Shown piece by piece: positions 36,197-63,072 of a DNA stretch of 64,000 bases. A program made the translations under genes and the position numbers. The notes under the pieces were generated by a model, which was not told the origin of the DNA, ran no database searches, and worked only from the letters and a program-made list of their open reading frames with translations. Within the stretch, counting starts at the first letter, position 1. Each line of letters begins with the position of its first letter. This stretch comes from Acidobacteriota bacterium (GTDB lineage Bacteria > Acidobacteriota > Holophagae > Holophagales > Holophagaceae), in NCBI GenBank assembly GCA_016195985.1, contig JACPYP010000011.1, positions 186,001 to 250,000 on the forward strand. Direction: 5' to 3'.

Positions 36197-36260
36197 GCGT
36201 GCCTCCAACCCGACCATTTCATCATCAACTGCAAGTCCGGCCAACTTCCCCATTCCCGCC

Positions 36261-36288
36261 TTGACGATGCGTGAATTTGGCCGATAAG
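36261..36288 (+). promoter_or_regulatory. Candidate sigma-70 promoter of asnB
   Basis: TTGACG (36261-36266), 16-base spacer and GATAAG (36283-36288), or TAAGGT at 36285-36290 with an 18-base spacer. Expected start near 36296, giving a leader of about 165 bases before asnB. Confidence 0.5.
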
Positions 36289-36349
36289 GTTCTAGCAGGC
36301 CATCCATGACCCTCTCCCTTCAGCGGTTCAACCGCAATACCAACCGGAA

Positions 36350-36444
36350 CCCTCGCGCGGATCGCGCGTGGGCCGGCGAGGGTCTCTCCTAGATTCCTGA
36401 CACCCCGGACCACCCCGATTCGCGCGAGCGGATCGGGGTTTTTT
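36350..36444 (+). promoter_or_regulatory. asnB: Candidate transcription attenuator in the asnB leader
   Basis: Hairpin 1: ACCCTCGC (36350-36357) with GCGAGGGT (36376-36383). Terminator: CCCCGAT (36413-36419) with ATCGGGG (36432-36438) then a run of six T, C and five T. An exclusive alternative pairs CGCGCGATCG (36355-36364) with CGATTCGCGCG (36416-36426), with one bulge, and would break both other stems. The terminator ends seven bases before the asnB Shine-Dalgarno and no gene lies upstream on this strand. Confidence 0.6.
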
Positions 36445-36460
36445 CTTTTTGGAGCCAGCC

Positions 36461-38164
36461 ATGTGCGGCATTCTCAGCATCCTCAATCTCGACCCCAAGA
36501 CGTCGAATCAGGCCGAACTGCGGCGCCAGGCCCTGGCCATGGCCCGGAAGATCCGCCACCGAGGTCCCGACTGGAGCGGCATCTATAGCGACGGCCGGGC
36601 CATCCTCGTCCATGAACGCCTGTCCATCGTGGATGTGGAACATGGCGCCCAGCCTCTCCTCGACACCCTCCAGGGCACGGTGCTGGCCGTGAATGGGGAG
36701 ATCTACAACCACCAGGAACTGCGCCGCGGCCTGGGGGAACCCCACGATTTCCAGACGCTCTCGGACTGCGAGGTCATCCTCTACCTCTACGACGAGCTGC
36801 CCCCCCGGGATTTCCTCAACCGCATGAACGGCATCTTCGCCTTCGTGCTCTACGACCCCAAGCGGGAAACCTACCTCATCGCCCGGGACCCCATCGGGGT
36901 CATCCCCCTCTATGTGGGCTGGGACCGCCAGGAGCATCTCTACGTGGCCTCCGAGATGAAGGCCCTGGTGGGCCACTGCGAGCGCATCCGCGAGGTGCCG
37001 CCGGGCCATTTCTACCTGGGGCATGAGCCCGACAAGAGCTTCCAGCGGTACTACGAGCCCGATTGGGCCGTTCCGGGTCACATGCCCTCGGAGCCCTACG
37101 ACGCGGCCAAGCTCCGCCAGGCCCTGGAAGCCGCCGTGAAGCGGCAGCTCATGTGCGACGTGCCCTACGGCGTGCTCATTTCCGGAGGGGTCGATTCTTC
37201 CATCGTGGCGTCCATCGCGGCGAAGTACCGGGAAGGCCGCGTCGAGGAAGACGGGGCCGCGCCCGCCTGGTGGCCCCGCATCCACTCCTTCGCCATCGGT
37301 CTGGAGGGCGCGCCGGATCTGGCCCCGGCCCGCAAGGTGGCCGAGCACATCGGCGCCATCCACCACGAGATCCACTTCACGGTGCAGGAGGGGCTGGACG
37401 CCCTGTCGGACGTGATCTACCACATCGAAAGCTTCGACGTGACCACCGTCCGGGCCTCGACGCCCATGTACCTCCTCATGCGGAAAATCCGCGCCATGGG
37501 CATCAAGATGGTGTTGTCCGGGGAGGGGGCCGACGAGATCTTCGGCGGCTACCTCTACTTCCACAAGGCCCCGGACGGCGCCGAACTCCACGCGGAAACC
37601 GTGCGCAAGCTCCAAAAACTGCACCTCTACGATTGCGCGCGGGCCAACAAGGCCAGCTGCGCCTGGGGGGTGGAGGCCCGCGTCCCCTTCCTGGACCGCG
37701 AATTCCTGGACGTGGCCATGCGCCTGGATCCTTCCGTGAAGCTGCCCCGCAACGCCCAGAGACCCCGCCCCATCGAGAAGTTCCCGCTGCGCCAGGCCTT
37801 TGACGGCGCCATCCCCGATGAGGTGCTCTGGCGGCAGAAAGAGCAGTTCTCCGATGGCGTGGGCTACGCCTGGATCAACGCCCTCAAGGCCACGGCCGAG
37901 CGGGACGTAAGTGATTCCATGATGGCGGGCGCGGCCGAGCGCTTCCCCGTGAAGACGCCGGAAACCAAGGAGGCCTACTTCTACCGCCAGATCTTCGAAC
38001 ACCACTTCCCCAGCGCCACGGCCGTGAACTGCGTGCCCTTCGAGCGCAGCGTGGCCTGCAGCACGGAGACCGCCCTGCGCTGGGACGCCTCCTTCGCCCG
38101 GATGGCCGATCCTTCTGGCCGGGCCGTCATGGATATCCACGATCAGGGCTACCAAAGGCCCTGA
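36461..38164 (+). CDS. asnB: Asparagine synthetase B (glutamine-hydrolysing)
   Basis: A 567-residue enzyme making asparagine from aspartate, glutamine and ATP. The N-terminal Cys2 nucleophile after Met removal (MCGILS) and RHRGPDWSG, LAVNGEIYNHQ are the glutaminase domain; LISGGVDSSIVA is the PP-loop of the synthetase domain; SGEGADEIFGGYLYF and WGVEARVPFLDREFLD are also typical. GGAG precedes ATG at 36461. It follows a leader with a terminator hairpin. PilZ starts 48 bases later, on the same strand. Confidence 0.97.
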   Translation: MCGILSILNLDPKTSNQAELRRQALAMARKIRHRGPDWSGIYSDGRAILVHERLSIVDVEHGAQPLLDTLQGTVLAVNGEIYNHQELRRGLGEPHDFQTLSDCEVILYLYDELPPRDFLNRMNGIFAFVLYDPKRETYLIARDPIGVIPLYVGWDRQEHLYVASEMKALVGHCERIREVPPGHFYLGHEPDKSFQRYYEPDWAVPGHMPSEPYDAAKLRQALEAAVKRQLMCDVPYGVLISGGVDSSIVASIAAKYREGRVEEDGAAPAWWPRIHSFAIGLEGAPDLAPARKVAEHIGAIHHEIHFTVQEGLDALSDVIYHIESFDVTTVRASTPMYLLMRKIRAMGIKMVLSGEGADEIFGGYLYFHKAPDGAELHAETVRKLQKLHLYDCARANKASCAWGVEARVPFLDREFLDVAMRLDPSVKLPRNAQRPRPIEKFPLRQAFDGAIPDEVLWRQKEQFSDGVGYAWINALKATAERDVSDSMMAGAAERFPVKTPETKEAYFYRQIFEHHFPSATAVNCVPFERSVACSTETALRWDASFARMADPSGRAVMDIHDQGYQRP

Positions 38165-38212: not shown

Positions 38213-38596
38213 ATGCCACTCATGAGCCCTGCCACCGAACACCGGCGACACCGCCGTGTTCCGATTGCCTACCAAGTGAAGCTCGTCGCGGACGACCGGA
38301 TCATCGCGTACCCCCAGGCCGTCAACCTGAGCCTGGGCGGCATCCTGCTGAAAGGCCGCGACCGCTTGCCGGTGGGCACCCAATGCGGCGTGGCGATCCT
38401 CATGAGCCCAGGTGAACCGGGGGGCCACGTGGTCGCCCGGGGCACCGTGGTGCGCAACGACGAGCGGGGCATGGCCATCGCCTTTTCCAGGGCTCTGGAT
38501 GCCAGCAGCGAAGCGGCCCTGCGCCAACTCATCGAGACCCTCGGGGGAGAGGCCGCGGGCGGCCCATGCCCCCTGTGGGAAACCGGGAGCGAATGA
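38213..38596 (+). CDS. PilZ domain protein
   Basis: A 127-residue cyclic di-GMP receptor-like protein. The two ligand motifs are RRHRRVPIAYQV (RxxxR) and NLSLGGILLKGR (D/NxSxxG). Such proteins change activity when c-di-GMP binds. The partner is not evident. Start ATG 38213; ATG 38222 also possible. Its stop overlaps the next gene by ATGATG. Confidence 0.88.
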   Translation: MPLMSPATEHRRHRRVPIAYQVKLVADDRIIAYPQAVNLSLGGILLKGRDRLPVGTQCGVAILMSPGEPGGHVVARGTVVRNDERGMAIAFSRALDASSEAALRQLIETLGGEAAGGPCPLWETGSE

Positions 38597-61600: not shown

Positions 61601-63072
61601 TCCATCCCAGGGCGAAGATCAGCGTGAAGCTGGTTTCGGGCACGGGCATCGGCACCATTGCCGTGGGCGTGGCCAAGGCTGGGGCGGACATCATCTACAT
61701 TGCCGGCGGCGATGGCGGCACGGGAGCGGCCACCCTGGGCTCCATGAAACATGCGGGCCTGCCCTGGGAGATCGGTCTGGTGGAAGCCCATCAGGCCCTG
61801 AGAGAGAACCGCATGCGCGGACAAGTGGAGTTGCGGGTGGACGGCGGCCTGCTCACGGGCAAGGACCTGGTCACTGCCGCCATCCTGGGCGCCGAGGGCT
61901 TCGAGTTCGGCAAGCTGCTCCTGGTGGCCGAGGGCTGCGTCATGGCCCGCATCTGTGAAAAGAACACCTGCCCCGCGGGCATCGCCACCCACGATCCCAA
62001 GTTCAAGGCCCGCTACACGGGCACGCCCGAAGCCATCAAGCGCATGTTGATCCATCTGGCCGAGGACGTGCGGCGACACCTGGCCCGTCTGGGGCTGAGC
62101 AGCATGGCGGAACTGCGGGACCGCACGGACCTCCTGACGATCTCGCCCGAGCATGCGACCTTCGTCCAGGACCGGAAACTGGACTTGTCGGCCTTTCTGG
62201 CCGCCCCCCCGGAACCCGAAGCCGGAGAGCTGCCTGCCCTCCAGCCGGAAGGCGTGGGGCCGCTGAATCGCCAGATCCTCGAAGCCGCCGGGGCTTTCCT
62301 GGGTCAGGCTGGAGAGGGCCTGCTGGCCTTCCCCATCGGCACCGAGGACCGCGGCGTCCTCGCTACCCTGGCGGGAGAGATCGCCCAGGGCATCCGCGAA
62401 CGCCGCCGCGCGGGTGAGGATCCCGCCGTGCCGGGCCTGCTCCGGGTCACCTTTACCGGCAGCGCCGGCCAGGGTTTCGGCGCCTTCCTTACCGAGGGCC
62501 TGGAGGTGAGGCTCCTGGGCGAAGCCAACGATTCCGTGGCCAAATCCATGTCCGGCGGCACGCTGAGTCTGCAGCCGGGACCCGCCGCCACCTTCACGCC
62601 TGAAGAAAACGCCATTCTGGGCAACGGCGCCCTCTACGGCGCCACTGGGGGCCGGTTTTTCGCGCGGGGCCTCGCGGGGGACCGCTTCGCCGTGCGCAAC
62701 AGCGGCGCCAGCGCCGTGGTCGAAGGGGCCGGCCACCATGCCTGCGAGTACATGACCCGGGGCGCCGTGGCCATCCTGGGCCAGGTGCTCACCAATGCGG
62801 GCGCGGGCATGACGGGGGGCTGCCTCTTCCTGCGCCGGGAACACATGCACCGGGTCAACAGCGACTACCTGTCTCCCGTGGCCTGGCGTCCGGAGGAAGA
62901 AGGCCTCTTCCACAGCCTGCTGGAGGCCCACCTGGCGAATACGGGCAGCGCCACCGCCGAAGCGCTGCTGGCGGACTGGGCCGGAACCGTGAACGCCTTC
63001 CTGCCCTTCCTGCCCGTCGCCGTGGCCGCCGGCCTCCCGGCCCATCCTGCCAAACCCACCGCCAAGGCCTGA
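58660..63072 (+). CDS. gltB: Glutamate synthase large subunit
   Basis: A 1470-residue enzyme making glutamate from glutamine and 2-oxoglutarate. The 11-residue propeptide (MPNASRTEHDA) precedes the Cys12 nucleophile (CGVGFIASRTG). RRFSTNT and HNGEINTIAGNR are glutaminase stretches; the central and FMN/Fe-S domain has SNSGEGGENPFYW, KPGEGGQLMKVKV and IAGGDGGTGAATLGS; 3Fe-4S cysteines are C1093, C1099, C1104 (CVMARICEKNTC). The C-terminal GXGXG-type beta-helix repeats end the chain. No gltD (small subunit) is adjacent, so the electron donor partner must be elsewhere or absent. Confidence 0.95.
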   Translation: MPNASRTEHDACGVGFIASRTGEACHQILLDALHALRCVEHRGGCAADQVSSDGAGVMTDIPFDLLGYRPGEIAVANLFMPQDPARLQRALETFASTFHFFDLEILAERDVPVDTSVLGEDALRTMPSLRQVILKRPAHCRTDASFDKLLYNAKQVLRTKQREQGIKREFFFASLSARTIVYKALTRAADLHRFYLDLQDPRYATRFALIHRRFSTNTRTSWDKAQPFRLIAHNGEINTIAGNRSRAISREMSIGLKKDQLVTHGSISDSGSLNEIAEAMLYRSSIPHMEDILAIMMPPAEGQTDFYTFWSRAMEPWDGPAIIMFSDGNTVGARLDRNGFRPARWTLTDDRFILASEAGAFPLDEARVQRKGIVYAGTGVKVDLPTGRVHFRDASLSRENRDAAFDARATPIGSLPEETQLAGPVSVFKKTLFTCSKEELEKLIYPMIATGKEAIGSMGDTARPNLFSSEPRPFFDYFYQHFAQVTNPPLDYIREGNITDLRVFLGRAPNIFFPKDLVPLNEALELPRPLLDLGQMRFLARMQTLRPSESQIIPRTFPILFQRADGVRGFHAAVERLAQDVRQAVERGTTVIILSDQDATVDRPPIPGLIALRAVVHTLNECGLRLNASIVMHTAEARTSHHVAALVSFGASAICPYLALEIARRDEHPSFATLTPDQREQNLMAALESGLLKIMAKCGISVVQSYMSAKLFTAVGLGPELMETFFPGHASPLGGIGYEELAGDVLLKTSLAAQSGFQNQMLHTHQFRESTRPGEGERHGMTSARAKLVHRLVALDPDLPEAVGLYEEYLASLKADEPINPRHLLAFREAPVPLPLPRVEPRSEILSRFGAGAMSFGAVSAESQRDLILAMEAVGGRSNSGEGGENPFYWTDGLSASTKQVASARFGVTAEYLVSGEEIQIKVAQGAKPGEGGQLMKVKVDATIAKARFSLPGVDLISPPPLHDIYSIEDLKELIYELKQVHPRAKISVKLVSGTGIGTIAVGVAKAGADIIYIAGGDGGTGAATLGSMKHAGLPWEIGLVEAHQALRENRMRGQVELRVDGGLLTGKDLVTAAILGAEGFEFGKLLLVAEGCVMARICEKNTCPAGIATHDPKFKARYTGTPEAIKRMLIHLAEDVRRHLARLGLSSMAELRDRTDLLTISPEHATFVQDRKLDLSAFLAAPPEPEAGELPALQPEGVGPLNRQILEAAGAFLGQAGEGLLAFPIGTEDRGVLATLAGEIAQGIRERRRAGEDPAVPGLLRVTFTGSAGQGFGAFLTEGLEVRLLGEANDSVAKSMSGGTLSLQPGPAATFTPEENAILGNGALYGATGGRFFARGLAGDRFAVRNSGASAVVEGAGHHACEYMTRGAVAILGQVLTNAGAGMTGGCLFLRREHMHRVNSDYLSPVAWRPEEEGLFHSLLEAHLANTGSATAEALLADWAGTVNAFLPFLPVAVAAGLPAHPAKPTAKA

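Follow-up and report, generated by a model that had tools for sequence, protein, structure and literature searches.

The asnB leader

The window analyzed here, meaning the whole stretch of DNA, is a 64,000-nucleotide (nt) region (G000:C18:186001-250000) from the 4.26-Mb genome of a soil and sediment bacterium of the family Holophagaceae. The subject is asnB, coding for a glutamine-hydrolysing asparagine synthase (NCBIfam PRK09431, 823 bits vs. a cut-off of 499; Pfam Asn_synthase), together with the leader preceding it, a candidate transcription attenuator in which an open reading frame (ORF) rich in asparagine (Asn) codons lies upstream of an intrinsic terminator. The parts are the following:

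36261-36266, plus strand: -35 element, TTGACG
36285-36290, plus strand: probable -10 element, TAAGGT
36306-36392, plus strand: leader peptide ORF, 28 codons from ATG 36306, plus the stop codon TAG (36390-36392)
36330-36350, plus strand: control codons, Asn at codons 9, 11, 13 and 15
36350-36382, plus strand: hairpin 1 (protector), within the leader ORF, -15.3 to -18.7 kcal/mol
36356-36376, plus strand: 5' strand of the antiterminator, taking part in two helices (36356-36364 and 36368-36376)
36405-36424, plus strand: 3' strand of the antiterminator, overlapping the 5' arm of the terminator
36412-36450, plus strand: intrinsic terminator, a 12-bp stem (36412-36439, found in the 41 aligned leaders) plus a U-tract, -22.8 kcal/mol
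36451-36454, plus strand: GGAG, by its sequence the likely asnB ribosome-binding site
36461-38164, plus strand: asnB, 567 amino acids plus stop

A first-pass annotation of the window had read this region as an attenuator of asparagine synthetase, which is the best-supported reading: Asn codons, stop codon, terminator and antiterminator strands are all conserved. The U-tailed terminator that it had placed ahead of the asnB ribosome-binding site is there, and the third pairing it had proposed (36355-36364 with 36416-36426) was recovered and extended. The Asn-rich ORF also stands, but opens at ATG 36306 rather than 36307, with the Asn codons at 36330-36350 rather than 36331-36351; the frame from 36307 meets a stop first. 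Two oddities had been pointed out, an ORF without a stop, running on past the asnB start, and a stall logic departing from the classic trp model. Both arose because the frame had been misplaced and the antiterminator was incomplete: TAG ends the ORF at 28 codons, and a ribosome halted at this stop would mask the 5' strand of the antiterminator, a strand that a stalled ribosome would leave free.

Conservation of the leader ORF and of the asparagine codons

AsnB was searched in 77 Holophagaceae genomes, 55 of which match at E <= 1e-100. Upstream regions were available for 50 of the 55, G017, G024, G055, G058 and G059 being left out because of a partial match or a contig start. An Asn-rich leader ORF was detected in 46 of the 50 regions, ending 62-84 nt before asnB. 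Forty-one asnB leaders were aligned (alignment A1). Codons 9 and 13 specify Asn in all of them, as AAC (39 leaders) or AAT (2) at codon 9, and as AAT (37) or AAC (4) at codon 13. Codon 11 is Asn in 36 and His in 5 leaders, and codon 15 is Asn in 4. An extra AAT codon is inserted in six leaders. The alignment has 38 internal gaps within the ORF, of 3 nt (36) or 6 nt (2), and start and stop codons are conserved. The peptide tail is conserved well past the Asn codons (PRADRAW..G). Leaders of the genus g9 (L046, L047, L049, L050 and L051) are shorter and encode a different peptide (e.g. MAFASVNFANNNPPPGWSW), in which PPP follows the Asn run; the order of the parts is unchanged.

An ORF that ends 55-95 nt upstream of asnB and holds at least three Asn within seven codons was found in 42 of the 50 upstream regions vs. 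2 of 2000 dinucleotide shuffles; with a threshold of at least two Asn, the figures are 46 of 50 and 40 of 2000. Other residues reach three in the same test (Ala and Arg in 35/50, Pro in 14/50; these counts have no shuffle control), because of the conserved R.NR and PRADRAWA stretches.

Outside Holophagaceae 80 loci were considered, 78 of which (all but L057 and L060) had at least 100 nt upstream. An Asn leader was found in seven (L053-L056, L058, L059 and L069), all encoding AsnB proteins at least 83% identical; the record of L058 is labelled Gemmatimonadetes. Five more loci (L063, L083, L094, L118, L130) feature an ORF with three Asn in seven codons, in a layout that, by eye, differs from that of the asnB leader.

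Folding of the leader and constraint on the RNA

The fold of the 161-nt leader is 4.4 standard deviations more stable than those of shuffled sequences. The antiterminator of the window (36355-36425; -35.0 kcal/mol) is made up by the pairing of 36356-36364 with 36416-36424, plus that of 36368-36376 with 36405-36413. For each of the 41 leaders, folding began 13 nt downstream of the first base of the codon in the A site, at a stage at which the 3' arm of the terminator does not yet exist. All 41 are predicted to form 11 to 17 antiterminator pairs when the ribosome occupies the last Asn codon ahead of hairpin 1, and no such pairs when it occupies the stop codon. Folding with and without a ribosome, the check that had been proposed along with the attenuator, thus predicts a structure which depends on the position of the ribosome.

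Standard pairing between the antiterminator strands is possible in 98.1% of cells in the 41 sequences, and in 18-55% when the strands are slid. Codons 17, 18, 20, 21 and 23 of the leader ORF are each dominated by a single codon, at frequencies of 1.00, 1.00, 0.90, 0.93 and 1.00 over 30 genomes. Such dominance (0.9 or more) is less common in asnB itself, where the same genomes show it at 33% of 125 invariant fourfold columns and at 18% of 28 invariant Arg columns. Judged by this comparison, the near-fixed third positions at codons 17-23 favour a constraint acting at the level of RNA.

Related leaders upstream of other amino-acid genes

A covariance model derived from the 41 asnB leaders (R1) was searched in 396 Acidobacteriota genomes at E <= 0.01, and found matches in 37. 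Of these, 29 are within Holophagaceae, and 14 of the 29 host two or three sites. The first 20 extra sites fetched are all located before other amino-acid genes. R1 also matches in eight genomes beyond Holophagaceae; the sites inspected (L159, L161, L162) are ordinary terminators lacking a cognate leader. A second model, built from 26 mixed leaders (R2), has matches in at least 63 of the 77 Holophagaceae genomes, with up to seven sites each among the matches listed. As R2 derives in part from such leaders, the number of sites cannot count as independent evidence, whereas the match between codons and genes can.

Sites not associated with asnB (103, most of those listed) were classed by tblastn with representatives of their own, and the classes named after NCBIfam, Pfam and PDB searches of the representatives. 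The sites precede pheA (38), proB (26), the aroFGH DAHP synthase (15), proC (15), an asnA-like gene (4, of which L252 is doubtful), class II DAHP synthase (2), thrA (1) and an unknown gene (1), one site having no gene match. Leaders in which at least three cognate residues occur within 8 are distributed as follows:

asnB (Asn): 42 of 46
asnA-like (Asn): 4 of 4, including L252
pheA (Phe): 37 of 38
aroFGH (Phe/Tyr/Trp): 14 of 15
class II DAHP synthase (Phe/Tyr/Trp): 2 of 2
proB (Pro): 25 of 26
proC (Pro): 11 of 15

Three or more Asn within 8 codons were found in none of the 96 leaders outside the asparagine classes. Codon specificity is not complete, as Pro reaches three in 13/46 asnB leaders, and Ile, Leu and Val jointly do so in 17/26 proB and 11/15 proC leaders. 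In every class average, a ribosome at the best control codon leaves the 5' arm of the terminator more sequestered than does one at the stop codon, a comparison which is biased upward, being the best of several. When the last control codon is compared with the stop, the difference is slight for pheA (3.0 vs. 2.5 pairs) and small for asnB of genus g9 (3.4 vs. 1.9).

The asnB leader ORF of the window can be aligned to all 15 aroFGH leaders (median score 27 vs. a shuffle 99th percentile of 11) and to all four asnA-like leaders (median 32 vs. 12.6). One of the two class II DAHP synthase leaders exceeds the shuffle 99th percentile. Homology to pheA, proB and proC leaders is not supported, with scores at or near background and the same limit exceeded in 2/38, 2/26 and 1/15 cases. 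These leaders retain the layout and lack the PRADRAW tail. A common scaffold with swapped control codons is supported by the alignments for Asn and aromatic leaders; Phe and Pro leaders appear to share with the asnB leader the layout alone, and could be convergent.

In the genome from which the window derives, R2 matches are associated with asnB, proB, pheA, proC and, weakly, thrA (E 0.015). Four additional attenuator candidates in this genome are located upstream of proB (G000:C26:217303-217442, minus strand, Pro codons), pheA (C6:61754-61887, plus strand, Phe), proC (G000:C13:37004-37139, minus strand, Pro) and thrA (C6:4934-5058, plus strand, Thr/Ile, weak score). Among the 21 R2 matches in this genome, six weak ones (L194, L196-L200) lack a leader of this type and were excluded from the class count; L192, L193, L195, L201-L206 and one match without a locus are outside the inspected set.

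asnA-like genes

An asnA-like gene was found in 4 of the 77 Holophagaceae genomes. The protein scores 107.1, below the curated NCBIfam cut-off of 309 for asparagine synthetase A, and has no Pfam match; in PDB it matches an AsnRS-related chain and the archaeal asparagine synthetase A (AsnRS, asparaginyl-tRNA synthetase). An Asn-rich leader precedes the gene in G053, G054 and G071. In G062 the gene is at the edge of the sequence, and the leader region falls outside of the sequence available. G053, G054 and G062 have no asnB of the type described here at E <= 1e-100, while G071 carries both asnB and the asnA-like gene, each behind an Asn leader. The control codons may serve as a functional label, and as such favour annotating the AsnRS-like protein found in G053, G054 and G071 as an asparagine synthetase.

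Two sites deserve separate mention. At L252 (G069:C3) an Asn leader comes with a broken terminator, and nothing behind it is clearly an asparagine gene (the score against the asnA-like protein is 39.7 bits); the G069 genome is listed as 8% contaminated. The site is kept in the asnA-like row of the classes above, and is not counted as an asnA-like gene. At L250 (G071:C114), an RNTN leader of the PRVDRAW type is found before a gene matched by neither NCBIfam nor Pfam, which may have an asparagine-related role that went unrecognised.

Holophagaceae probably hold an exchangeable attenuator cassette. In this reading one homologous leader, composed of a protector hairpin that encodes PRADRAW.G.G, a GACCACC spacer and a terminator, has been redirected between Asn and aromatic amino acids through exchange of its control codons, and serves AsnB as well as the unrelated asparagine synthetase A of archaeal type. 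Taken with the look-alike Phe and Pro leaders, this would place attenuation by leader peptides among the main regulators of amino-acid synthesis in the group, and the leader would predict the function of a poorly annotated synthetase.

Promoter and neighbouring genes

The first-pass annotation had placed a sigma-70-like promoter at 36261-36288. The -35 element is backed by the presence of TTGAC within 60 nt upstream in 46/46 Asn leaders, a count without a chance control. A consensus promoter scanner finds, by its own rule, no promoter upstream of the asnB leader. The -10 element is probably TAAGGT at 36285-36290 rather than the hexamer at 36283-36288, as it is the former that aligns, by eye, with TATGAT and TATCAT of relatives (L007, L015); its match to the consensus is weak. 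Genus g9 leaders have a -10-like element very close to the leader ATG, and the leader-peptide mRNA may be leaderless. At L038 (G035) hardly anything separates the promoter from the asnB ATG, and the leader is missing; this looks like a natural deletion of the leader, and would leave asnB unregulated.

Upstream of the leader no gene lies on the plus strand, as had been noted earlier: the neighbour is a gene of the zinc alcohol-dehydrogenase family on the minus strand, which we take to be threonine-dehydrogenase-like. On the other side, a PilZ-domain gene (38213-38596 of the window, same strand) starts 48 nt past the asnB stop, and may be co-transcribed with asnB. Elsewhere in the window, at 62157-62251 on the minus strand, ARAGORN predicts a tRNA-Pro (CGG), not reported by the Rfam tRNA model at the gathering threshold.

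Mechanism and alternative explanations

asnB is very probably controlled by a ribosome-mediated transcription attenuator responding to charged tRNA-Asn. The ORF and its stop codon, the conservation of the Asn codons, the terminator, the nucleotide-level constraint on the antiterminator strand and, as a prediction, the position-dependent folding were all computed. From these we infer promoter use, leader translation, stalling, termination and the response to asparagine. RNA polymerase would start near 36295, and a ribosome would begin the leader ORF. When asparagine is plentiful, the ribosome would pass the Asn codons and reach TAG at 36390, covering the 5' strand of the antiterminator; the terminator at 36412-36450 would then form, and transcription stop. 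When Asn-tRNA is short, the ribosome would wait on an Asn codon (36330-36350) and disturb the 5' arm of hairpin 1; 36356-36376 could then pair with 36405-36424 before the 3' arm of the terminator is made, and the polymerase would read into asnB. An AsnRS is encoded in the genome (437.7 bits vs. a curated cut-off of 342.6), so that the charging of tRNA-Asn can track the level of free asparagine, a requirement of the attenuation model.

The locus has what is found in trp-type attenuators: a leader ORF with start and stop codons, a cluster of end-product codons, an intrinsic terminator before the first gene and, in prediction, an antiterminator formed with the ribosome on a control codon and not with the ribosome on the stop codon. 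Independent support for attenuation comes from DAHP synthase, preceded by a homologous leader whose control codons are Tyr/Trp/Phe, from the unrelated asparagine synthetase with its Asn-rich leaders, and from pheA, proB and proC, which lie behind Phe or Pro leaders of similar layout.

Several results weigh against this interpretation. The leader is missing in four of the 50 asnB upstream regions (L038, L041, L043, L044). Codons and stems are conserved among relatives, as had been anticipated, and the expected covariation is not found: across the 41 leaders no antiterminator pair, and no pair of the RNAalifold consensus, features a two-sided compensatory change, and antiterminator pairing scores are equal with shuffled partners, with no excess. 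The single informative antiterminator pair is G-U in 24 leaders, A-U in 15, G-C in 2 and A-C in none. The predicted pairing is thus well conserved, yet not proven by covariation. Synonymous recoding of the window leader yields z scores of -1.1, -1.6, -1.7 and -0.2 for the folds at four ribosome positions, none significant; over the 41 leaders the mean z is -0.95, and no leader beats all of its 150 recodings. A median of 32% of synonymous recodings match the duplex with the terminator arm in the 46 leaders. That no antiterminator pairs form when the ribosome is at the stop codon is a consequence of the assumed ribosome footprint, which covers the 5' strand. Once the full terminator is present it wins at equilibrium in every ribosome state, so antitermination must be kinetic, decided during transcription. 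In L045, a stall on the first Asn codons leaves the antiterminator unfreed. When no ribosome is present, hairpin 1 is favoured in the window leader, but the antiterminator (at least 8 pairs) beats it in 26 of the 41 leaders, and the untranslated state is therefore not uniformly protected.

Conservation of the peptide well beyond the Asn codons, and the PPP that follows the Asn run in the five genus g9 leaders, are what one would expect of nascent-peptide arrest, in which the leader peptide, through its PRADRAW..G tail or through the Asn run plus PPP, stalls the ribosome in response to a small molecule, and the identity of the codons is less important. This is very unlikely, as conservation extends to third positions over much of the tail (codons 17-23), pointing to RNA, the pheA, proB and proC leaders have the same layout without the tail, and control codons are precisely what differs between operons, matching the product. 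It is highly improbable that the terminator merely insulates asnB, or sets a constant low expression, the ORF being a chance frame. Formation of the terminator in every state at equilibrium, and an antiterminator not unusual with respect to synonymous recodings, would fit such a role, but not the clustering of Asn codons relative to shuffles, the whole-codon gaps, inserted AAT included, the conserved start and stop, or the recurrence of this layout, with cognate codons, ahead of other amino-acid genes.

T-boxes of Firmicutes amino-acid genes sense the charging of a specific tRNA and control a leader terminator, as proposed here for asnB, but bind the tRNA directly, without translation. Although T-boxes control asnS in a few species and other amino-acid genes in Firmicutes (excerpts of PMC2494555), direct sensing of asparagine by a T-box, or by another tRNA- or ligand-binding RNA, is scarcely credible, since Rfam 15 at the gathering threshold reports no T-box in the window and no family at all in the leader, a permissive search of 36250-36470 (E up to 1) returns six matches, none a T-box (best NsiR1, 22.5 bits vs. 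a gathering score of 39), and a leader of about 150 nt, mostly ORF and terminator, would leave little room for one.

Relation to known systems

Attenuators are textbook regulators, and the cases described are concentrated in few phyla and few amino acids. As in the trp, his and phe attenuators of enterobacteria (excerpts of PMC1183508), a short leader ORF carries codons for the end product. Protector hairpin, antiterminator and terminator are likewise shared, as is a stop codon placed so that the ribosome which has finished translation masks the antiterminator strand. Unlike these, the asnB leader belongs to the phylum Acidobacteriota, and its antiterminator 5' strand starts within the ORF, in the protector hairpin's 5' arm. 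Leader peptides of Actinobacteria (PMC1262725) and hisS in bacilli (PMC2965389) belong to the same class of regulation and were found comparatively; the main text of PMC1262725 contains no asn term.

No attenuator with asparagine codons and no codon-swapped family was found in the accessible sections of the open-access literature, though the comparative survey of Lopatovskaya et al. (2010; cited in PMC4833913) could hold one; the terms "asparagine codons" and "Asn codons" are used in other contexts in the relevant parts of PMC5009743 and PMC8670374. The mechanism is thus known, that of a classic ribosome-mediated attenuator, while the asparagine specificity and the codon-swapped family appear to be new within the open-access literature searched. 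In 2010 the attenuators predicted in Acidobacteriota were almost without assigned functions, according to excerpts of PMC2965389. The asnB leader would add asparagine to the amino acids sensed in this way, in a phylum in which hardly any predicted attenuator had an assigned function at that date, and its codon-swapped relatives would provide a natural experiment on the evolution of attenuator specificity.
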